From NCBI RefSeq assembly GCF_014062345.1, contig NZ_JACGLS010000001.1:806001-870000 (forward strand): 64,000 bases of DNA. The letters are read 5' to 3'. This document shows, piece by piece, positions 10,272 through 62,391 of the stretch. Origin of the DNA: Tenacibaculum pelagium. Lineage in GTDB: Bacteria; Bacteroidota; Bacteroidia; Flavobacteriales; Flavobacteriaceae. Numbering within the stretch: position 1 is the first letter of the stretch; every line of letters starts with the position of its first letter. The notes beneath the pieces were generated by a model. It made no database searches. It had not been told where the DNA came from and saw only the letters and a program-made list of their open reading frames with translations. Both the position numbers and the translations under genes were made by a program.

Positions 10272-11042
10272 TTAACAGTTCTTTATACTTTTAATAAAAC
10301 TATCAATTTTATTAACTCCATTTTCGTCTAACTCTTTTATAAAAGCTGAACCAATAATAGCTCCATTCATATACTTACAAGCTGTTGTGAATGTTTTATT
10401 GTCTGAAATACCAAAACCAACAATTAAATTACTTTGTAAATTCATTTCGTTTATTCTATTGAAATAAGCTATCTGTTGCTCCGATATTTCTCCCTTTGCT
10501 CCTGTAATTGATGCTGATGCTACTACATAAATAAATGCTTCTGTTAACGAATCTATTTTACGAATACGTTCTTCAGATGTATGAGGAGTAATTAAAAACA
10601 CATTTACAATTCCATAACTCTTAAATAATTCTTGGTAATGATTTTCGAATTCAATCATTGGTAAATCTGGAATAATAACTGTGTCAATTCCACACTCTTT
10701 TACTTTTTGACAGAACTCATGCTCTCCATATTTGATTATTTGATTTAAATACCCCATTAAAACTAAAGGAGTCTTATTGTTTTCTTTTATTGAAAACAAT
10801 TGTTCAAAAACAACTTCTAAATTCATTCCATTATCAAGAGCTACTGAACTACTATGTTGTATTGTTGGTCCGTCTGCCAAAGGATCAGAATATGGCAATC
10901 CTACTTCAATAAAATCAACCCCATTTGAACTTAAGTTATTAATTATAGCCGTAGTGTCGTTTAATTTAGGAAAACCAGCTGTAAAAAATATAGACAATAA
11001 ATTTTGACTCTTTTCTTTAAATATTTTTTTAATCGAATTCAT
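10272..11042 (-). CDS. trpA: Tryptophan synthase alpha subunit
   Basis: Cleaves indole-3-glycerol phosphate to indole and glyceraldehyde 3-phosphate, passing indole to TrpB. The 256-residue TIM barrel has the catalytic Glu46 and Asp57 in 'DFIEVGLPYSDPLADGPT', and the phosphate-binding loops 'ASITGAKG' and 'GFGIS' near the C-terminus. It is the last gene of the trp operon, 2 nt after trpB. No clear hairpin terminator follows it before the tricorn-like gene. Confidence 0.97.
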   Translation of the reverse strand: MNSIKKIFKEKSQNLLSIFFTAGFPKLNDTTAIINNLSSNGVDFIEVGLPYSDPLADGPTIQHSSSVALDNGMNLEVVFEQLFSIKENNKTPLVLMGYLNQIIKYGEHEFCQKVKECGIDTVIIPDLPMIEFENHYQELFKSYGIVNVFLITPHTSEERIRKIDSLTEAFIYVVASASITGAKGEISEQQIAYFNRINEMNLQSNLIVGFGISDNKTFTTACKYMNGAIIGSAFIKELDENGVNKIDSFIKSIKNC

Positions 11043-11044
11043 TT

Positions 11045-12223
11045 TTATTCTTCTAAATGATTGATGTACGTTTCTAAATCTTTATCTCCTCTACCTGATA
11101 AATTAATCACCACAACTTGGTCTTTTTTCAAATCCATTTTTGGTAAAACTGCTAATGCATGCGCACTTTCTAATGCTGGAATAATTCCTTCTATCTTCGT
11201 TAATTCATAAGCAGCATTTAACGCTTCTTTATCAGTAGCATTCATAAACTTCGCACGTTTTGTTTCATGTAAATACGCATGTAAAGGACCAACCCCGGGA
11301 TAATCTAATCCTGCTGAAATAGAGTATGGTTCCACAATTTGTCCATATTCGTCTTGCATTAAAATAGTTTTACTTCCATGAATTACACCAACTTCACCTA
11401 ATTGAGAAGTTGCTGCACTTTCACCGGAATTCACTCCTAAACCAGCAGCTTCAACCGCTATTAACTCAACATCTTTATCCTCTAAGTAATGATAAAAAGC
11501 ACCTGCAGCATTCGATCCCCCACCAACACAAGCAACAATCGTATCTGGATTTTCTTTACCAGTTTGCGTTTTTAATTGCGTCTTCATCTCTTCAGAAATC
11601 ACCGCTTGCAAACGTGCAACCATGTCAGGATATGGATGCGGCCCAACAACAGAACCAATTAAATAATACGTTTCAGGGTTTTGAATCCAATAGCGAATTG
11701 CTTCGTTAGTTGCATCTTTTAAAGTTTTGCTTCCGCTTGTGGCAGGAACCACTTTTGCTCCTAACATTTTCATACGAGCAACATTTGGTGCTTGTCGTTT
11801 AATATCTGTTTCTCCCATAAAAACAACACACTCCAAATCCATCAAAGCACAAACCGTAGCAGTAGCCACTCCATGCTGTCCCGCTCCTGTTTCAGCAATA
11901 ATTTTAGTTTTACCTAAGTGTTTTGCTACTAAAATTTGACCAATTGTATTGTTTACTTTATGTGCTCCTGTATGGTTTAAATCTTCACGTTTTAAATAAA
12001 TAGTTGCTCCATATTTTTCAGACAATCTTTTTGCTAAATACAACGGACTTGGGCGACCAACATAATGTTGTAACAAATCTTTGTATTCTTTTTGAAACGC
12101 TTCTGATGCAAGAATATTTAAATAATTATCTTCTAATTCTTTTACATTTGGATATAATAACTCTGGAATAAATGCGCCTCCGAATTGCCCATAATACCCT
12201 TCTTTAGTTGGTTGAAATTTCAT
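11045..12223 (-). CDS. trpB: Tryptophan synthase beta subunit
   Basis: PLP enzyme condensing indole with serine to give tryptophan. The 392 residues are normal length for TrpB1. PLP-binding Lys89 lies in [13 protein letters not shown], the 'ETGAGQHG' loop binds the substrate carboxylate, and the glycine-rich phosphate loop is '[10 protein letters not shown]'. It starts 8 nt after the 70-residue ORF and ends 2 nt before trpA, so the synthase subunits are co-translated. Confidence 0.98.
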
Positions 12224-12231
12224 TTTTTATT

Positions 12232-12444
12232 TTATTCAAAGTACCAGTTATTTCTACCTGTACTATTTAACCAATTTCTTAGTTCTTTTTTTATTTTATC
12301 TTTTTTGTTTTTATCTACCCCTCTTATCCAAATACCAAAATAACCATGAGGATTTTCACATGATATTTTAAATTCATACTTTTCATTGTCTATTAAACAT
12401 TTGACACACCCTCCTCTTCCTTCATGAACTACTTCAAAATTCAT
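12232..12444 (-). CDS. Small 70-residue protein inside the trp operon, unknown
   Basis: I do not recognise this protein. It is 70 residues, soluble, charged, with two cysteines close together (GGCVKCLID, about residues 13 and 16) and three tryptophans, two of them in the C-terminal 15 residues (ending NNWYFE). Its ATG overlaps the trpF stop by 4 nt (ATGA), and trpB follows after 8 nt. The coupling makes it a real, co-translated gene and not chance. The CxxC-like pair could bind metal, but nothing else supports that. It is an unusual insertion in the otherwise standard order trpF-trpB. Confidence 0.75.
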   Translation of the reverse strand: MNFEVVHEGRGGCVKCLIDNEKYEFKISCENPHGYFGIWIRGVDKNKKDKIKKELRNWLNSTGRNNWYFE

Positions 12445-13097
12445 CCCAATAGACTTTTAAATTTCTTTATTTTTTTTATTGATTTTAAACCAGCCTCTGT
12501 TTCAAACTTACTATTTACATCTAAAGCGTAAATAGGTAAGCTAGTTTTTTGTAATTCTTTTATCGTTGCTATCTCATTTAACCCTATTCCTCCACTTAAA
12601 AAAAATGGTTTAGTAGAATTATAATTCTCTAAGAGCTTCCAATTAAAAGTTATACCGTTTCCTCCTCTTTCTTTTCCTTTCGTATCAAATAAAAAGTAAT
12701 CTACTAGCTCTTCGTATGGCTTTATTTTTTCAAAATTAAAATCATCTTTAACTCCAAAAACCTTAACAATTTCTGGTATTTTATATTTTGATCTTTGATG
12801 CTTTTCTGCAATACTTTCAGTAAATATTGTTTTTAATTTAGCTACATATTCTGGAGATTCATCTCCATGTAATTGCACCATTTTTAACCCATATTCCTCA
12901 ACTAACGAAACTACAATTTCTGGAATCTCATTTACAAAAACACCAGCTTTTTTTATTTCTTTTGGTAGTTCAGGAATGATTCCTTCAAAATTTCTTGGGG
13001 ATCTATCATAGAAAATAAATCCCAAATAATCAGGATTCAACTCAGCTACTTGCTGAATATTTTCTATATACTTCATTCCACAAACTTTCAGTTTCAT
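12441..13097 (-). CDS. trpF: Phosphoribosylanthranilate isomerase
   Basis: Amadori isomerase converting phosphoribosylanthranilate to CdRP. The 218-residue TIM barrel starts MKLKVCGMKYIENI, with the catalytic Cys6 in the family motif KxCG, and has the catalytic Asp in 'YFLFDTKGKERGGNG' and the phosphate loop 'FFLSGGIGLNEI'. It lies 2 nt after trpC and overlaps the 70-residue ORF by 4 nt. Confidence 0.96.
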   Translation of the reverse strand: MKLKVCGMKYIENIQQVAELNPDYLGFIFYDRSPRNFEGIIPELPKEIKKAGVFVNEIPEIVVSLVEEYGLKMVQLHGDESPEYVAKLKTIFTESIAEKHQRSKYKIPEIVKVFGVKDDFNFEKIKPYEELVDYFLFDTKGKERGGNGITFNWKLLENYNSTKPFFLSGGIGLNEIATIKELQKTSLPIYALDVNSKFETEAGLKSIKKIKKFKSLLG

Positions 13098-13099
13098 CT

Positions 13100-13888
13100 T
13101 TATCTAATTTGGTCTATAAATTCTTTACAAGCTTGTCCTGGATTATCAGTTTTCATAAAAGTTTCACCTATTAAAAACCCTTGAAAACCATGCTCTTTTA
13201 ATCCTGTAATAATTCTTGGATCTGAAATTCCACTTTCAGAAACTTTAAGTGCCGAATCTGGAATTTGACTTGCTAATTTCATCGAATGCTCTAAATCAAC
13301 CTCAAATGTTTTAAGATTGCGGTTATTAATTCCGATTATCTTATTATCTAAATCATTAACCTTATCTAAATCTTCTTGGGTGTGCACTTCATATAAAACC
13401 TCTAAACCTAAATCGTTCGCTAATTGTCCGTAATTTTTCAACTCTTGTGCCGTTAAACAAGCAGCGATTAACAAAACTACATCAGCTCCAATAGCCTTAG
13501 CTTCTACAATTTGAAAACCATCAACAATAAAGTCTTTTCTTAAAATTGGTTTTAGTTGATTTACAGTTCTAGCTTCTAATAAATCAGCCATTGTACCTCC
13601 AAAAAACGAAGTATCTGTTAATATAGATTGTCCTGCTACATTGGCATCTAAATAACCTTCTGTAACCTCAATAATGGTAGACTTATCGTTAATAACCCCT
13701 TTTGATGGAGATTGACGTTTAAATTCAGCTATAATACCTGTTGAACCAACTTGTAACAACGATTTCTTTAATGAAAAAGGAGCATTTTTAAAATTAGGAC
13801 TTTCTACTAATTTCTTAACAGGAACTTCAGCTTTTATCTTTGCTATTTCTGTTTTTTTAAACGCGATTATTTTATCTAAAATGGTCAT
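13100..13888 (-). CDS. trpC: Indole-3-glycerol-phosphate synthase
   Basis: Ring-closing decarboxylase converting CdRP to indole-3-glycerol phosphate. The 262-residue barrel has the signature IIAEFKRQSPSKG (about 52-64) with the catalytic Lys, the 'LRKDFIVDGFQI' strand with a second catalytic Lys, 'IGINNRNLKTFEVDL' and 'SESGI'. It stands alone and is not fused to trpF as in enterobacteria. It is separated from trpD by 1 nt and from trpF by 2 nt. Confidence 0.97.
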   Translation of the reverse strand: MTILDKIIAFKKTEIAKIKAEVPVKKLVESPNFKNAPFSLKKSLLQVGSTGIIAEFKRQSPSKGVINDKSTIIEVTEGYLDANVAGQSILTDTSFFGGTMADLLEARTVNQLKPILRKDFIVDGFQIVEAKAIGADVVLLIAACLTAQELKNYGQLANDLGLEVLYEVHTQEDLDKVNDLDNKIIGINNRNLKTFEVDLEHSMKLASQIPDSALKVSESGISDPRIITGLKEHGFQGFLIGETFMKTDNPGQACKEFIDQIR

Positions 13889-13889
13889 T

Positions 13890-14876
13890 TTAACTTACTA
13901 ATTTTTCTAATGATTTTTTTGCTTTTAATCCAAAAAGAGAATCTTTTGCTTCTTCAAAAGCAGTTTCAAAACTCTTATTTTCATCAAACGTTTTTAATGC
14001 AAATGCAGTATTTGTCAAAACTACATTATTCTGCTGTTCTGTGCCTTTTCCATTGATAATATTTACAAAAATTTTAGCAGCTTCTGCAACAGTATCACCT
14101 CCAAAAATATCTGATTGTAAAATTTGTTTTTGATTTAAATCGGATGGTGAGATTTGTTGTTCTGATTCTTTTGTAAATAGTTTAAAATCTCCTGTTAACG
14201 AAATTTCATCATAGCCATCTAACGCGTGTACCACTCCATAATTCACTTTCGACTGTTGTAATATATAGTTGTAAACTCTGGCTACTTCTAAATTAAAAAC
14301 ACCTACTAATTGGTTTTGAGGTGAACTTGGGTTTACCAAAGGCCCTAACATATTAAAAAATGTTTTTACACCTAATTCTCTTCTAATAGGGGCAACAACT
14401 TTCATTGCTGGATGAAATAATGGCGCATGTAAAAAACAAATATTCGCTTCTTCTAACTGATGCTTTAAAACACTTTCGTCATTGGTAAATTTATAACCTA
14501 AAAACTCCAACATATTTGAAGATCCTGAAGCTGATGACACTCCGTAATTACCATGCTTAGCAACTTTATTTCCAGTTCCTGCAACAATAAATGACGTTAG
14601 TGTTGAAATATTAAAGGTGTTTTTTCCATCTCCTCCTGTTCCACATAAATCAATCGTATTAAAGTCTGACAAATCTACTTTTACAGCTAATTCCAATAAT
14701 GCTTCTCTAAATCCAGATAACTCATCAACCGAAACCGGACGCATTAAAAACACCGTTATAAAAGCTGCTATTTGAGAAGCGTTATATTTTTCTTGCGCTA
14801 TATTTATTAAGACTTCTTTCGATTGGTCTTTAGTTAATCTTTTCTGTTCGAAAAGTGTATTTAATATTTTTTTCAT
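13890..14876 (-). CDS. trpD: Anthranilate phosphoribosyltransferase
   Basis: Transfers phosphoribosyl from PRPP to anthranilate. The 328 residues contain the PRPP loop CGTGGDGKNTFNIST starting at Cys78, 'KHGNYGVSSASGSSN' and 'FFNMLGPLVNP', all standard. It is a stand-alone enzyme with no TrpG fusion. The start overlaps the last base of the trpG stop (TAATG), and trpC follows after 1 nt. Confidence 0.97.
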   Translation of the reverse strand: MKKILNTLFEQKRLTKDQSKEVLINIAQEKYNASQIAAFITVFLMRPVSVDELSGFREALLELAVKVDLSDFNTIDLCGTGGDGKNTFNISTLTSFIVAGTGNKVAKHGNYGVSSASGSSNMLEFLGYKFTNDESVLKHQLEEANICFLHAPLFHPAMKVVAPIRRELGVKTFFNMLGPLVNPSSPQNQLVGVFNLEVARVYNYILQQSKVNYGVVHALDGYDEISLTGDFKLFTKESEQQISPSDLNQKQILQSDIFGGDTVAEAAKIFVNIINGKGTEQQNNVVLTNTAFALKTFDENKSFETAFEEAKDSLFGLKAKKSLEKLVS

Positions 14877-15448
14877 TAGATACTTTCTATAAAATTCTGA
14901 ATCATCTTTTTTCCATCTGGAGTTAAGATACTTTCTGGATGAAATTGTACTGCCTCGATATGATATTCTTTATGACGTAATGCCATTACACTTCCAGCAT
15001 CATCAATTGCAGTAACTTCTAATTCTGACGGAAAATTATTGTGAGAAGCAATCCAAGAATGATAACGAGCTGCCTCAAATGTTTCTGGAATATTTTTAAA
15101 AGTAATTGTGTCATTCTTAAGCACTTTCATCTCAGTGGCAACTCCATGAAATACATCATTTAAATTTTCAAGTTCTCCACCAAAAACTTCAGTGATTGCC
15201 TGTAAACCTAAACACACTCCGAAAATTGGAATTTTACCTGCATACGCCTTAATCACTTCTTTTAAAATTCCTGCTTCGTCTGGAATCCCTGGTCCTGGTG
15301 ATAAAATAATTGCATCGTAGTTTTTAATTTCATCAACTAAAATTTCATCATTACGATATACATCTGGCAATTTCCCTGTAATATCTTCTACATAATGTAC
15401 CAAATTATAGGTAAACGAATCGTAATTATCTAATAGTAATATCTTCAT
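14876..15448 (-). CDS. trpG: Anthranilate synthase glutamine amidotransferase subunit
   Basis: Class I amidotransferase feeding ammonia to TrpE. The 190 residues carry the nucleophile Cys79 in FGVCLGLQ, the oxyanion loop 'SPGPGIPDEAG' and the His/Glu of 'VQFHPESILTPDG' near the C-terminus. In bacteria without a separate pabA this subunit may also serve folate synthesis; no pab gene is visible in the window. One nt separates it from trpE. Confidence 0.96.
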   Translation of the reverse strand: MKILLLDNYDSFTYNLVHYVEDITGKLPDVYRNDEILVDEIKNYDAIILSPGPGIPDEAGILKEVIKAYAGKIPIFGVCLGLQAITEVFGGELENLNDVFHGVATEMKVLKNDTITFKNIPETFEAARYHSWIASHNNFPSELEVTAIDDAGSVMALRHKEYHIEAVQFHPESILTPDGKKMIQNFIESI

Positions 15449-15449
15449 C

Positions 15450-16841
15450 TTATATCTCTTCTGCTAACACTAAAGCTTTCTTTAATGCTGCTAATTTATT
15501 ATTAACTTCTTGTAATTCGTTTTCCTCTTTCGAATTAATAACAATCCCTGCTCCTGCTTGATAGTACAATGTATTATTTTTACTTACAAACGAACGTATT
15601 GCAATTGCTTGATTTACGTTTCCGTTTAACCCAATAAAGCCTACACATCCACCGTAGAATCCTCGTGTTTGATTTTCGTATTTATCAATTAATTCCATCG
15701 CTTTATATTTTGGAGCTCCACTTAAAGTTCCAGCAGGAAAAGTATCTCCAACAATTTCAATTGGATTCCCTGTAATTTTACCCGTAACTGTAGATACCAA
15801 ATGAATTACATGACTAAAATATTGTACTTCTTTATAGGTTTCTACGGTTACATTAGTAGCATGTTTACTTAAATCATTACGTGCTAAATCTACCAACATT
15901 ACATGCTCTGCATTTTCCTTCGGATCATTAGCCAATTCTTTTGCTAATTCTCTATCTTTCTCATCATCTCCAGTTCTTCTAAAAGTACCCGCAATAGGGT
16001 TTATAATTGCCTCTTTAGCATCAATTTTTATCTGTGCTTCGGGTGAAGATCCCATTAATTTAAAACTTCCGTAATCGAAATAAAATAAATATGGTGATGG
16101 ATTTATAGAACGTAATGCTCTGTACACATTAAATTCATCTCCTTTAAATTTTTGTTGAAATTGACGAGATAACACTAATTGAAAAACATCTCCTCTTTTA
16201 CAGTGTTCTTTTGCTTTAGTAACGCTTTGTTTAAACTCCTCATCTGTAATATTAGAAGTTTCACTTCCTTCAAAATTAAATTGATATTTAGCAAATGATT
16301 GTGAGTTTACTAGATTAGATATTTCTGACAATCGAGACTCTTCACCTTCAGGAATATTTTCAATTAAAATTAATTCATTCTTAAAATGATTGATTGCAAC
16401 TATAAACCTAAAAAAACTGTATTGCAACATTGGAATTGCCGATGGTGATTTCTTTGAATCAAATTGTATTGTTTCAAAATACTGAACTGCATCAAAAGTA
16501 GTGTATCCATACAACCCATTGAATGATTTAATTTCATCTGAACAATCAACATCTATTAAATTACTGTAGCTATCAAACAGTTTATAAAAATTACGGTCTA
16601 TCGTTTTTCTACCTAACACTTCCTTTTTATATGAAAACGAAATGTCATTTTCATCAGCTTTGATAGTTATTAAAGGCTCAATACATAAAAAAGAATAACT
16701 ATTTTCTTTACTATGATAATCTGAACTTTCTAACAATAAGCTATTCGCATATTTATCTCGCGTACGTAAGTATAAACTCACCGGAGTAACAGTATCAGCT
16801 AATTGCTGTTTAGCTATTGTTGTAAACTTTATTTTATTCAT
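15450..16841 (-). CDS. trpE: Anthranilate synthase component I
   Basis: Makes anthranilate from chorismate and ammonia, the committed step. The 463-residue chorismate-binding protein has 'RGDVFQLVLSRQF', 'NPSPYLFYFDYG', 'PIAGTFRRTGDDEKD', 'FPAGTLSGAPK' and 'GAGIVINSKEENE', the ordered motifs of the family. The N-terminal region contains 'LLESSDYHSKENSYSF', resembling the LLES tryptophan feedback site. First structural gene of the operon, 80 nt after the leader peptide, with the attenuator hairpin between. Confidence 0.97.
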   Translation of the reverse strand: MNKIKFTTIAKQQLADTVTPVSLYLRTRDKYANSLLLESSDYHSKENSYSFLCIEPLITIKADENDISFSYKKEVLGRKTIDRNFYKLFDSYSNLIDVDCSDEIKSFNGLYGYTTFDAVQYFETIQFDSKKSPSAIPMLQYSFFRFIVAINHFKNELILIENIPEGEESRLSEISNLVNSQSFAKYQFNFEGSETSNITDEEFKQSVTKAKEHCKRGDVFQLVLSRQFQQKFKGDEFNVYRALRSINPSPYLFYFDYGSFKLMGSSPEAQIKIDAKEAIINPIAGTFRRTGDDEKDRELAKELANDPKENAEHVMLVDLARNDLSKHATNVTVETYKEVQYFSHVIHLVSTVTGKITGNPIEIVGDTFPAGTLSGAPKYKAMELIDKYENQTRGFYGGCVGFIGLNGNVNQAIAIRSFVSKNNTLYYQAGAGIVINSKEENELQEVNNKLAALKKALVLAEEI

Positions 16842-16861
16842 TCTTAAATTTATTGTAACAA

Positions 16862-16889
16862 AAAAGGCTTATCATGAGATAAGCCTTTT
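16862..16889 (-). terminator. trp attenuator hairpin
   Basis: Perfect 12-bp stem AAAAGGCTTATC / GATAAGCCTTTT with a 4-nt loop; on the minus strand it is followed by more T residues. It lies between the Trp-rich leader peptide and trpE, the position expected for an attenuator terminator. Bacteroidetes trp leaders are a described RNA class (Rfam name as I recall it, Bacteroid-trp). Confidence 0.85.
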
Positions 16890-16921
16890 CGTTGTATTAT
16901 AGATATAACAAGATGGTCTCA

Positions 16922-16975
16922 CTAACGTAAGTTACGAGATTTCCACCACCAGTTATTTAATAATTGTTTCACCAT
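16922..16975 (-). CDS. trpL: trp operon leader peptide
   Basis: Short ORF of 17 residues, MVKQLLNNWWWKSRNLR, with three consecutive Trp codons at positions 9-11. It lies between a perfect TTTG-N19-TACATTTG promoter and the attenuator hairpin. The ribosome would stall at the Trp run when charged tRNA-Trp is scarce, allowing an alternative fold that prevents the terminator from forming. The ATG is 7 nt after the -7 element, so the transcript begins essentially at the peptide. Confidence 0.9.
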   Translation of the reverse strand: MVKQLLNNWWWKSRNLR

Positions 16976-16982
16976 TATGGTA

Positions 16983-17013
16983 CAAATGTAAAATAGATTT
17001 TCTGGAATCCAAA
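16983..17013 (-). promoter_or_regulatory. trp operon promoter
   Basis: Minus strand: TTTG at 17013-17010, exactly 19 nt of spacer, then TACATTTG at 16990-16983. This is a full match to the Bacteroidetes -33/-7 consensus and the best promoter in the window. It drives trpL and the attenuated trp operon. Confidence 0.85.
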
Positions 17014-17224
17014 TTTTTACTTCAATTATTTCTTTAAAAATAAAAAACAATAAGCTTTATAAGCGGTTTGTAGCAAAACAACTTTCACATCAACACAAAT
17101 AACATGTTATTAGTTAAAATATATAACCATAATTTAATATTTAGTTTTCAAATACAAACATCATTCAGTTATTTGTACCAGAATAGTAAACAAAAAATTA
17201 CTCTAAGTATAAAAATATAAAGTT

Positions 17225-18907
17225 ATGTGTGGAATTGTATGTGCGTTTGATTTAAAACAATCTTCTGAGAGTTTAAGACCTCAAGTATTAGAGATGGCTA
17301 AAAAAATTAGACATCGTGGTCCAGACTGGAGCGGAATTTATAGCGACGATAAAGTAATTATGGCTCATGAACGTTTAGCCATTGTTGATCCTGCTTCTGG
17401 GCAACAACCTTTATTTAGCGCTGATAAAAAATTAGTTCTAGCTGCCAATGGAGAAATCTACAACCATAGAGAATTGAAGAAAGAGTTTGGTTTTGACTAT
17501 GAATTTCAAACTGCTTCGGATTGTGAAGTAATCTTAGCTTTATATAAAGAAAAAGGAGTTGATTTTGTTGATGATTTAAACGGAATCTTTGGTTTTGCTC
17601 TGTACGATACAGAAAAAGACGAATACTTCATCGCTCGCGATCATATGGGAATTATCCCATTATATATTGGTTGGGATCAAAATGGAACTTTTTATGTAGC
17701 TTCAGAATTAAAAGCTTTAGAGGGAGTTTGTGCTAAAATAGAGTTATTTCCTCCTGGACATTATATGTCTAGTAAAGACGGAGAGTTTGTAGAATGGTAT
17801 AAAAGAGACTGGTCTGACTATGAAGCAGTAAAAGAAAATGAAACAAGCATACAAGAAGTGAAAGAAGCTTTAGAAGCTGCTGTTCATAGACAATTAATGT
17901 CTGATGTTCCTTACGGAGTGTTACTTTCTGGTGGATTAGACTCTTCAGTAACCTCAGCTATTGCTAAAAAATATTCTCAAATGAGAATTGAATCTGATGA
18001 TAAAAAAGAAGCTTGGTATCCACAGTTACATTCTTTTTCAGTTGGTCTAGAGGGATCACCTGATTTAGCAGCAGCACAAAAAGTTGCAGATTATATTGGT
18101 ACGATTCATCATGAAATTAAATTTACAATTCAAGAAGGTTTAGACGCTATTAAAGATGTTATTTACAATATCGAAACTTACGACATTACTACAATCCGCT
18201 CTTCTACACCAATGTATTTAATGGCTCGTGTAATTAAATCTATGGGAATTAAAATGGTGCTATCTGGTGAAGGAGCTGATGAAATTTTTGGAGGATATTT
18301 ATACTTTCATAAAGCACCTAACGCACAAGAATTTCACGAAGAAACTGTTCGTAAATTAGATAAACTGCATATGTACGATTGCTTAAGAGCAAACAAAAGC
18401 TTAATGGCTTGGGGAATTGAAGGTCGTGTTCCGTTTTTAGATAAAGAATTTATGGATGTTGCTATGCGCATCAATCCAAAAGACAAAATGATTAATGGAG
18501 AGCGTATGGAAAAATGGGTAATCAGAAAAGCTTTTGAAGATATGTTACCAGAAAGTGTAGCATGGAGACAAAAAGAACAATTTAGCGATGGTGTTGGTTA
18601 TAGTTGGATTGATACCTTAAAAGAAATTGTTGAAAAAGAAGTTACTGATGAACAATTAGCAAACGCTAAATTTAGGTTCCCTATAAATACACCTTTAAAT
18701 AAAGAAGAGTTTTATTATCGCTCTATTTTCGAAGAACATTTTCCTAGTGATACAGCTGCTTTAAGCGTACCACAAGAAGCTAGTGTTGCTTGTAGTACTG
18801 CAACCGCTTTAGAGTGGGATGAAGCTTTTAAAAATATGAACGAACCATCGGGAAGAGCTATCGCTAATGTGCATGATGATGCTTATAAAAAAGAAGTAAC
18901 ATCCTAA
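17225..18907 (+). CDS. asnB: Asparagine synthase B, glutamine-hydrolysing
   Basis: Makes asparagine from aspartate, ATP and glutamine. The 560 residues start MCGIVCAFD, with Cys2 as the N-terminal nucleophile of the glutaminase domain (about 1-200; 'RHRGPDWSG', 'LAANGEIYNHREL'). The synthetase domain has the PP-loop SGGLDSS near residue 235 and 'LSGEGADEIFGGY' near 350. Length and motifs match the E. coli AsnB type. It is divergent from the trp operon with its own terminator. No consensus TAnnTTTG promoter was found. Confidence 0.97.
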   Translation: MCGIVCAFDLKQSSESLRPQVLEMAKKIRHRGPDWSGIYSDDKVIMAHERLAIVDPASGQQPLFSADKKLVLAANGEIYNHRELKKEFGFDYEFQTASDCEVILALYKEKGVDFVDDLNGIFGFALYDTEKDEYFIARDHMGIIPLYIGWDQNGTFYVASELKALEGVCAKIELFPPGHYMSSKDGEFVEWYKRDWSDYEAVKENETSIQEVKEALEAAVHRQLMSDVPYGVLLSGGLDSSVTSAIAKKYSQMRIESDDKKEAWYPQLHSFSVGLEGSPDLAAAQKVADYIGTIHHEIKFTIQEGLDAIKDVIYNIETYDITTIRSSTPMYLMARVIKSMGIKMVLSGEGADEIFGGYLYFHKAPNAQEFHEETVRKLDKLHMYDCLRANKSLMAWGIEGRVPFLDKEFMDVAMRINPKDKMINGERMEKWVIRKAFEDMLPESVAWRQKEQFSDGVGYSWIDTLKEIVEKEVTDEQLANAKFRFPINTPLNKEEFYYRSIFEEHFPSDTAALSVPQEASVACSTATALEWDEAFKNMNEPSGRAIANVHDDAYKKEVTS

Positions 18908-61242: not shown

Positions 61243-62391
61243 ATGACATTTTTTAAGAATACTTATTGGATAAAACGGATTGCTATTATTATATCCTTAT
61301 TAATTGTTTCATTCATTTTATGGAACACCTATATATTCTTTCAAAAATTTAAACAAGAAGAAAGGGGTAAAATAGAAATTTTCGCTGCTGCTTTTAAAGA
61401 ACTAGCTTCAAATTCTGACTTAAACGAGAACACCAACTTAATCAACAAGGTTTATCAAACGATTGAAGATACTCCAACTATTTTAGTAAACAAAAATGGC
61501 ACTATTGATTTACATAGGAATATAGATTCTCTTAAAGCTACAAATCCTAAATACCTTCAGGAGCAATTAAATATAATGAAAGCTCAAAATGAACCTATCG
61601 AAATTGAATACTTTGGAGTTACTCAATATCTTTATTATCGAAACTCAGATTTACTATATAAACTCAAGTATTATCCTTTAGCCTTATTATTAATTTTAGC
61701 CTTGTTTTTAACCATTGCTTATATGATGTACAAATCAAGTAAAGTTGCGGAACAAAATAAGTTATGGACAGGAATGGCTAAAGAAACAGCTCATCAAATA
61801 GGAACTCCACTATCTTCTTTATTAGGTTGGATTGCTATTTTAAGATCTGAGAATGTAAATGAAGAATATATTGTAGAAATCGAAAAGGATGTTGATCGAT
61901 TAAGTACCATAGCCAACCGATTTTCTAAAATAGGTTCAGTTCCAAAACTAGAACAACAAAACATTGTTGATATAACCAAAAGTGCTTTTAATTATTTACA
62001 ATCAAGAAGTTCTAAAAGAGTTACGTTTTCATTTACCACTTCTAAAAGTGAATTAAACAGCAATATAAACACCGAATTGTATGGTTGGGTTATTGAAAAT
62101 TTGGTAAAAAATGCAATCGATGCTATGCAGGGAAAAGGAAGTATTTCTTTACAAATTCAAGAAACACCAAAACATATAAAAATTAATGTTTCTGATACTG
62201 GAAAAGGGATTGCAAAATCTCAGTTTAAACAAATCTTCACTCCTGGATTCACCACTAAAAAACGTGGCTGGGGTTTAGGTTTATCGCTTTCTAAAAGAAT
62301 TATTGAAGATTACCATAAAGGTAAAATATTTGTAAAAAAATCTGAATTAGGCAAAGGAACTACTTTCGAAATTCAGTTAGAGAAGGTTTAA
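61243..62391 (+). CDS. Sensor histidine kinase
   Basis: A 382-residue two-component sensor with membrane helices at about 11-31 and 138-160 and a periplasmic loop between. The H-box has phospho-accepting His184 in AHQIGTPLSSLLGW; the catalytic domain shows the N-box 'WVIENLVKNAIDAM', G1 'VSDTGKGIA', 'IFTPGFTTKKRG' and G2 'GWGLGLSLSKRI'. No response regulator is adjacent, so its partner is elsewhere. The end overlaps the convergent 144-residue ORF by 4 nt. Confidence 0.92.
   Translation: MTFFKNTYWIKRIAIIISLLIVSFILWNTYIFFQKFKQEERGKIEIFAAAFKELASNSDLNENTNLINKVYQTIEDTPTILVNKNGTIDLHRNIDSLKATNPKYLQEQLNIMKAQNEPIEIEYFGVTQYLYYRNSDLLYKLKYYPLALLLILALFLTIAYMMYKSSKVAEQNKLWTGMAKETAHQIGTPLSSLLGWIAILRSENVNEEYIVEIEKDVDRLSTIANRFSKIGSVPKLEQQNIVDITKSAFNYLQSRSSKRVTFSFTTSKSELNSNINTELYGWVIENLVKNAIDAMQGKGSISLQIQETPKHIKINVSDTGKGIAKSQFKQIFTPGFTTKKRGWGLGLSLSKRIIEDYHKGKIFVKKSELGKGTTFEIQLEKV

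Follow-up and report, generated by a model that had tools for sequence, protein, structure and literature searches.

The trp leader of the window (the whole stretch of 64,000 nucleotides of Tenacibaculum pelagium DNA that was analysed) is very probably a ribosome-mediated transcription attenuator of the trpEGDCFBA operon, a Tenacibaculum/Polaribacter homologue of Bacteroid-trp carried on an almost leaderless transcript. Identification as a trp attenuator is well supported by a conserved WWW peptide, a conserved terminator, a mutually exclusive antiterminator and similarity to an Rfam family, the parts, their geometry and their conservation having been established by sequence analysis and folding. 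The switch probably stops the production of the tryptophan enzymes when tryptophan is plentiful. A short ORF with tandem Trp codons lies before a trp gene, an intrinsic terminator is located between this ORF and the first gene, and the leader directly precedes trpE in a seven-gene operon, with asnB divergent at 17225. The operon and its leader comprise the following features.

10272..11042, minus strand: trpA (NCBIfam TIGR00262, above cut-off)
11045..12223, minus strand: trpB (NCBIfam TIGR00263, above cut-off)
12441..13097, minus strand: trpF (NCBIfam phosphoribosylanthranilate isomerase models, best E 3.5e-39, below cut-off)
13100..13888, minus strand: trpC (NCBIfam NF001377, above cut-off)
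13890..14876, minus strand: trpD (NCBIfam TIGR01245, above cut-off)
14876..15448, minus strand: trpG (NCBIfam TIGR00566, trpG/pabA subfamily, above cut-off)
15450..16841, minus strand: trpE (NCBIfam TIGR00564, E 4.5e-125, below the model cut-off)
16865-16860, minus strand: T run of the terminator
16860..16889, minus strand: intrinsic terminator (3:4), 12-bp stem, 4-nt loop and U-tract
16889-16878 and 16873-16862, minus strand: terminator arms AAAAGGCTTATC and GATAAGCCTTTT
16874..16879, minus strand: segment 3 core, UCUCAU, forming the 3' side of the antiterminator and located in the 5' arm and loop of the terminator (folds)
16917..16922, minus strand: segment 2, GUGAGA, 5' side of the antiterminator, pairing with 16879-16874 (constrained folds)
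16917..16939, minus strand: 1:2 (protector/pause) hairpin, UCUCGUAAC...GUUAGUGAGA (minimum-energy fold)
16924-16922, minus strand: leader stop codon TAG
16951-16943, minus strand: three tandem TGG codons, the ribosome stall site, invariant in a 38-row alignment whose rows were chosen by TGGTGGTGG
16975-16973, minus strand: leader ATG
16975-16922, minus strand: leader peptide ORF, MVKQLLNNWWWKSRNLR, 17 residues
16978 or 1 nt downstream, minus strand: predicted transcription start (+1), from the box position in two Flavobacterium species
16990-16983, minus strand: -7 promoter element TACATTTG, a perfect TAHHTTTG
17013-17010, minus strand: -33 promoter element TTTG

Both the peptide with its three consecutive Trp codons and the 12-bp terminator hairpin before trpE (16889-16862, with its 4-nt loop and T run) had been proposed in a preliminary description and were confirmed, as were the full-consensus promoter, in which TTTG and TACATTTG are separated by the 19-nt spacer of the Bacteroidota consensus on the minus strand, and the start of the peptide exactly 7 nt after the -7 element (gap at 16982-16976, minus strand). 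A terminator scan of 16700-17230 returned 1 site against 0.1 expected, the near-palindromic stem being entered on the plus strand, and the hairpin with its T run ends 20 nt ahead of the trpE ATG (16841). The leader RNA folded at -35.4 kcal/mol compared with -19.4 (sd 3.2) for shuffled sequences, corresponding to a z of -5.0 with 0/200 shuffles as low.

Conservation of the leader was assessed over 28 full TrpE loci (L001-L028) from 39 genomes of relatives and the best 80 from named genomes (L032-L111), some genomes occurring in both sets and L049 and L023 having identical leaders. A short WW-containing ORF was present within 700 nt before trpE in 103 of the 108 loci; among the five WW-less loci, L069 has 5 nt of upstream sequence, L103 has 162 nt, and L067, L072 and L097 have 700. 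Ahead of WWW the peptide is variable (MVKQLLNN, MKSITKNT and MKNQKNI). Two Ichthyobacteriaceae-like loci (L024, L051) carry tandem trp leaders with two WWW peptides, and in six Prolixibacteraceae loci (L056, L060, L062, L063, L077, L091) a peptide of the IWLPWWGL type, which reads IWLWWWGLL in L056, precedes the WWW peptide.

No Rfam family passed at the gathering threshold in the window. A relaxed search gave nine matches, of which only Bacteroid-trp was convincing, the other eight having E values of 0.016 or worse. The match of the leader to RF01692 ("Bacteroidete tryptophan peptide leader RNA") was full-length (model positions 1-131; 45.6 bits, E 3e-4) and was the only RF01692 match at E <= 0.001 in the organism's own genome; across 148 genomes of the order, searched with stricter filters, 24 had a match at this level and 20 were above the cut-off. 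For the reciprocal comparison, a covariance model, R1, was built from 38 leaders of the window's clade with the terminator as its only helix and run over 69 chosen loci. It recovered 17 of the 20 Rfam-passing loci (L112-L131) at E < 5e-5 and at the same place, the remaining three matching weakly (E 0.014, 0.2 and 0.2). Weaker R1 matches included ilvD loci (best E 0.003) and opposite-strand terminators (best E 8e-4), so that R1 matches above about 1e-3 were regarded as unspecific. In the organism's own genome the trp leader scored E 8e-14 and the next match 0.011; one of the weaker own-genome matches (C1:89320) sits before ilvD. The comparison with Bacteroid-trp to which the preliminary description had pointed thus came out favourably in the full-length match and the reciprocal R1 matches, and fell short at the curated cut-off (45.6 against 49 bits). 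Because of these two lines of evidence, the sequence data support the window leader as a Bacteroid-trp homologue that fails Rfam's formal cut-off.

Bacteroid-trp is listed as a likely cis-regulatory RNA of Bacteroidetes in its original description (Weinberg et al. 2010, PMC2864571). It shares with the present leader the phylum, the site before trpE, an AUG at the same model position, a WW(W) peptide, a paired stretch after the Trp codons and the terminator 5' arm. It differs in spacing, the first in-frame ATG following a perfect box by 16-22 nt in 13 of the 20 Rfam-passing loci; this distance is 5 nt in three others (L115, L117, L131) and 1 nt in L113, where a further ATG follows 18 nt on, and the last three have no perfect box before the first in-frame ATG.

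The promoter element TACATTTG was the sole perfect TAHHTTTG and the sole promoter-like match on the coding strand from 700 to 74 nt before trpE. An E. coli-type sigma-70 scan, which gave 3 sites against 3.7 expected, yielded none of use. A literature search turned up no start-site map for Tenacibaculum, and distances were taken from two Flavobacterium species: the box of F. psychrophilum lies at -12 to -5 (PMC9723704), and the transcription start of F. johnsoniae follows the box by 4-5 nt in 241 of 434 candidate promoters (PMC6847099). Taken together with the 7-nt spacing, these distances predict a 5' UTR of 2-3 nt, so the leader mRNA would be almost leaderless, a reading supported by inference from promoter spacing.

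The spacing is conserved within the genus. From 24 genomes, including that of the window, 23 loci were obtained, G004 yielding no full TrpE. The leader start was taken as the most 5' in-frame ATG lying no more than 45 nt from the Trp codons. On this basis, a perfect TAHHTTTG was found in all 23 loci, a TTG lying 19-20 nt upstream of that box in 21, and a box-to-ATG distance of 7 nt in 20, 8 nt in two and 6 nt in one, while the letters between box and ATG vary. This range of 6-8 nt corresponds to a predicted 5' UTR of about 1-4 nt. In several leaders another ATG follows 3-6 nt later; the window's leader has none. Over the 42-locus Tenacibaculum/Polaribacter clade, the spacing was 5-10 nt in 40 of 41 callable loci, the exception being L048 with 16 nt; L050 was not callable, and in L039 an internal ATG 6 nt after the perfect box was picked by hand. 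Outside the clade, 30 perfect-box loci showed spacings of 4-9 nt (10 loci), 11 nt (one) and 15-37 nt (19), among them named Flavobacterium (18, 18 and 24 nt), Aquimarina (16, 17 and 17 nt) and Gillisia (5 nt) loci. All 71 perfect-box loci together gave a two-peaked distribution with none at 12-14 nt; the remaining 37 loci, having no perfect box or no leader, were uninformative on spacing.

A TrpE tree was computed by a quick method, with weak deep branches and long-branch warnings, and carried a spacing state in 69 rows after the two with 36 and 37 nt were excluded. A spacing of 10 nt or less, the state of 50 rows, required 8 changes compared with 16.7 in shuffles (0/500 as low), starred branches forcing 5 changes. 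Short spacing has therefore been inherited within the clade, with more than one gain or loss. The window TrpE groups with that of Tenacibaculum aiptasiae (93% in TrpE, and by the tree). On the same tree, TrpE of the Tenacibaculum/Polaribacter clade stands apart from that of Flavobacterium, Aquimarina and Aequorivita, deep branches being weak; this separate grouping may reflect a transfer of the operon.

The preliminary description had emphasised that the leader peptide would be translated from an almost leaderless mRNA, on which the ribosome must load without an upstream binding site. The first part stands by inference, from the 6-8 nt spacing in 23/23 genus loci and the 4-5 nt starts of F. 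johnsoniae. The surprise attached to the second part was overstated, since Bacteroidota mRNAs are naturally without Shine-Dalgarno sequences (PMC6847099), and further so since leaderless mRNAs are a known minority in flavobacteria and leaderless trp attenuators are already in print. Leaders exceed 10 nt in 87% of predicted F. johnsoniae transcripts (PMC6847099), leaderless mRNAs make up 5.5% in F. psychrophilum (PMC9723704), and about 3.7% of UTRs are under 10 nt in B. thetaiotaomicron (PMC7366714). The F. psychrophilum paper also reports "strong clues" for attenuation by leader peptides upstream of amino-acid operons, and counts pheA and hisG among the 5' elements that other genera share (PMC9723704). 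TrpL1 of Streptomyces lividans (MFAHSTRNWWWTAHPAAH) shows leaderless transcription before trpE and resembles the present leader in being leaderless (0-3 nt leader), in its three consecutive Trp codons, and in the hairpins and U-rich stretch before trpE; it differs in phylum and promoter, and its start sites are mapped whereas those here are predicted (PMC8079986). In Sinorhizobium meliloti, the trp attenuator RNA rnTrpL likewise has its 5' end at the leader ATG, starting with the ATG of trpL; unlike here, the 5' end is exactly at the ATG and both RNA and peptide act in trans (PMC7298713). By title and start of abstract, the matches listed in a literature search, which covered the subscription literature thinly, included no description of leaderless attenuators in Bacteroidota. 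The mechanism is known; the new part would be its near-leaderless form in Bacteroidota, apparently common to thr and ilv leaders.

The two alternative structures were examined by covariation in an alignment, A2, of 38 leaders of the window's clade. Terminator pairs were formed in 99.1% of A2 cells, with 5 double-changed cells and 0/500 shuffles having as many; terminator covariation is thus real. Pairing is possible between GUGAGA at the stop codon and UCUCAC/U, which lies in the 5' arm and loop of the terminator; these antiterminator pairs were formed in 92.1% of cells compared with 18.0-63.6% when slid by 1-3 columns. Antiterminator covariation was weak in the clade: its score was reached by 56/500 shuffles, its double-changed cells by 36/500 and its double-changed pairs by 194/500, and sliding by +2 columns gave a score of 0.139 compared with 0.141 unslid. 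It does not stand out because the sequence hardly varies within the clade, and covariation was for this reason discarded as proof of the antiterminator.

Constrained folds were computed for transcripts cut before the terminator 3' arm, using 39 leaders out of the 42-locus clade. Those left out were L012, which has the same aligned stretch as L009, and L048 and L050, which have other terminator sequences; L049, a likely copy of L023, was kept. With the ribosomal A site on Trp codon 1, 2 or 3, the antiterminator was in the minimum-energy fold of 34, 38 and 38 of the 39 leaders, respectively, falling to 0/39 with the ribosome at the stop codon and 4/39 without a ribosome; in the window's own leader it forms when codon 2 or 3, but not codon 1, occupies the A site. 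The combined pattern (formed at codon 2, absent without a ribosome, absent at the stop codon), counted slightly differently from the folds above, was found in 32/39 real leaders against 91/1170 shuffles of the stretch from the Trp codons to the terminator. Pairing at codon 2 was by itself common in shuffles (639/1170), absence in the other two states being the rare part. Folding thus identified a mutually exclusive antiterminator that would be freed by a ribosome on the Trp codons.

In 39/39 leaders, segment 2 follows the last Trp codon by 18-21 nt and the first base of the stop codon by 2-9 nt; in the window it begins at the last base of the leader stop codon. The order of the leader parts is that of a classical attenuator. 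The E. coli trp attenuator shares the 1:2, 2:3 and 3:4 logic, a stop codon near segment 2 and tandem Trp codons, and differs in having a longer leader with a Shine-Dalgarno site, as well as TrpR. In a test of duplex energy, the value of the window's own leader was reached by 19/200 shuffles. Values reached by 10/200 shuffles or fewer were obtained for 17/43 clade rows and 37/114 rows overall (counting false or doubled rows, namely the upstream ORF of L007, L081 at -581 and L083 twice), an excess of low values but with many unremarkable rows, the window's among them. Some distant leaders (e.g. L028, L062, L087, L107) have a strong antiterminator of different sequence, and the L008 leader pairs with a different part of segment 3.

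In the proposed mechanism, RNA polymerase would start about 2-3 nt before the ATG and the first ribosome would begin a few nucleotides from the 5' end. With ample charged tRNA-Trp, translation of the peptide is predicted to carry the ribosome to the stop codon, which overlaps segment 2; segment 2 would be masked, the 3:4 hairpin would form and transcription would end about 20 nt upstream of trpE. With uncharged tRNA-Trp, the ribosome would halt on the Trp codons and cover segment 1, leaving segment 2 (GUGAGA) free to pair with UCUCAU of segment 3, which lies in the 5' arm and loop of the terminator, so that the terminator could not form in time and the operon would be transcribed. As the terminator is more stable than the antiterminator, antitermination must be kinetic. 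Where no ribosome loads, the 1:2 hairpin would form and the terminator would win. Transcription start, peptide translation and tryptophan response are all predicted steps of this scheme.

Several other explanations were weighed against this one. The same attenuator could have an ordinary 5' UTR if the start in use lay upstream, at another promoter or at a distance other than 4-5 nt from the box. The clade's starts are predicted from box spacing rather than mapped, and in named Flavobacterium, Aquimarina and Psychroserpens loci the ATG of the same leader lies 15-24 nt from the box, which indicates that leadered initiation is possible. Against an upstream start, the stretch scanned before trpE contains no other perfect box, box and spacing are kept over the genus together with the -33 TTG (21/23), and the box-to-ATG spacing over 71 loci is two-peaked with a gap at 12-14 nt, making this explanation improbable. 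About as improbable, and argued by analogy, is a role of the attenuated RNA or peptide also in trans, the switch being part of the function as with Sinorhizobium rnTrpL/peTrpL; the terminated RNA of about 119 nt with an ORF at its 5' end has the rnTrpL architecture (PMC7298713), but the peptide part before WWW varies.

A chance short ORF before a constitutive leader terminator, lacking ribosome regulation, would be consistent with the shortness of the ORF and with the unremarkable antiterminator statistic of the window (19/200 shuffles); WW codons in 103/108 trpE leaders and the fixed distance of segment 2 from the last Trp codon (18-21 nt in 39/39) make it very improbable. The least probable of all is another trp mechanism (T-box, TRAP or riboswitch), for which no supporting point was found: no Rfam family is above cut-off in the window, and the best sub-threshold match is Bacteroid-trp itself, followed by one at E 0.016. 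The near-leaderless, ribosome-mediated attenuator is accordingly retained as the best explanation.

Other amino-acid leaders of these genomes were surveyed for the same arrangement. Before thrA, an in-frame ATG or GTG follows a perfect box by exactly 4-5 nt in 11/13 loci, L203 and L204 having no perfect box at the expected place; the start codon would therefore coincide with the predicted transcription start, and the thrA leader is possibly a fully leaderless attenuator. The thrA leader peptides (L205, L202, L206-L214) end with Thr-Leu at ACCCTTTAGGGG where the motif matched exactly, and no G+C-rich terminator was seen downstream by eye. For ilvD, a first leader peptide (MKKQILNIISIIVIVIISQG and the like) lies 4-10 nt after an imperfect box in 11/14 genus loci, the box being loosely defined (TTTG or TTTA) and never a perfect TAHHTTTG in the 11; three loci gave no motif-bearing first leader, and four of the 11 have a second box candidate further up. 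Five ilvD loci (L168, at 40-360, L154, L155, L156 and L159) contain a series of two leader peptides of the branched-chain type. Each seems to have a terminator of its own, and the second peptide is rich in Ile/Val, ending in SPPS in 4/5. Before hisG, an HHH leader lies 16-19 nt after an imperfect box in 14/15 genus loci, one locus giving none; the -7 box of the genus his leaders (L144 and others) is mostly without the first T, reading [AG]ATATTTG or AAAATTTG. Eighteen pheA loci were scanned, 14 of them of the genus, and credible Phe-rich leaders were found in 3/14 (L227-L229), with no box by script and, by eye, a TTTG 18-26 nt before the ATG. Near-leaderless starts thus appear common to thr, trp and, with weaker promoters, ilv leaders, and not to his. 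As a generalisation, it is a tentative and rather doubtful proposal that the Tenacibaculum/Polaribacter thr, trp and ilv attenuators form a leaderless or near-leaderless class, with the start codon at the predicted 5' end or up to about 6 nt from it, and with his and phe (three loci, by eye) leadered.

Among 56 window ORFs of >= 100 aa, a perfect box lies no more than 60 nt from the first ATG in 10, and in 4 of these 10 the spacing is 8 nt or less, a count made rough by the choice of the first ATG. This suggests that near-leaderless starts are not rare in general, and the placement is not clearly special to leader peptides; the near-leaderless claim therefore rests on conservation of the spacing and not on its rarity. 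The larger ORFs at 61243 (plus strand), 49569, 6966 and 30209 (all minus strand) have their first ATG 4-7 nt after a perfect -7 box and are possibly leaderless.

Attenuation needs quick loading of a ribosome on a short RNA, and an ATG at the 5' end in a phylum without Shine-Dalgarno sequences would make recruitment of the first ribosome directly testable, with the leadered his attenuators of the same genomes and the leadered trp attenuators of Flavobacterium as natural controls. If the thr, trp and ilv class is real and leaderless initiation proceeds on 70S ribosomes, then, besides sensing the amino acid, the operons would respond to the state of the initiation machinery, or the first ribosome could catch RNA polymerase early in the leader of only about 120 nt.
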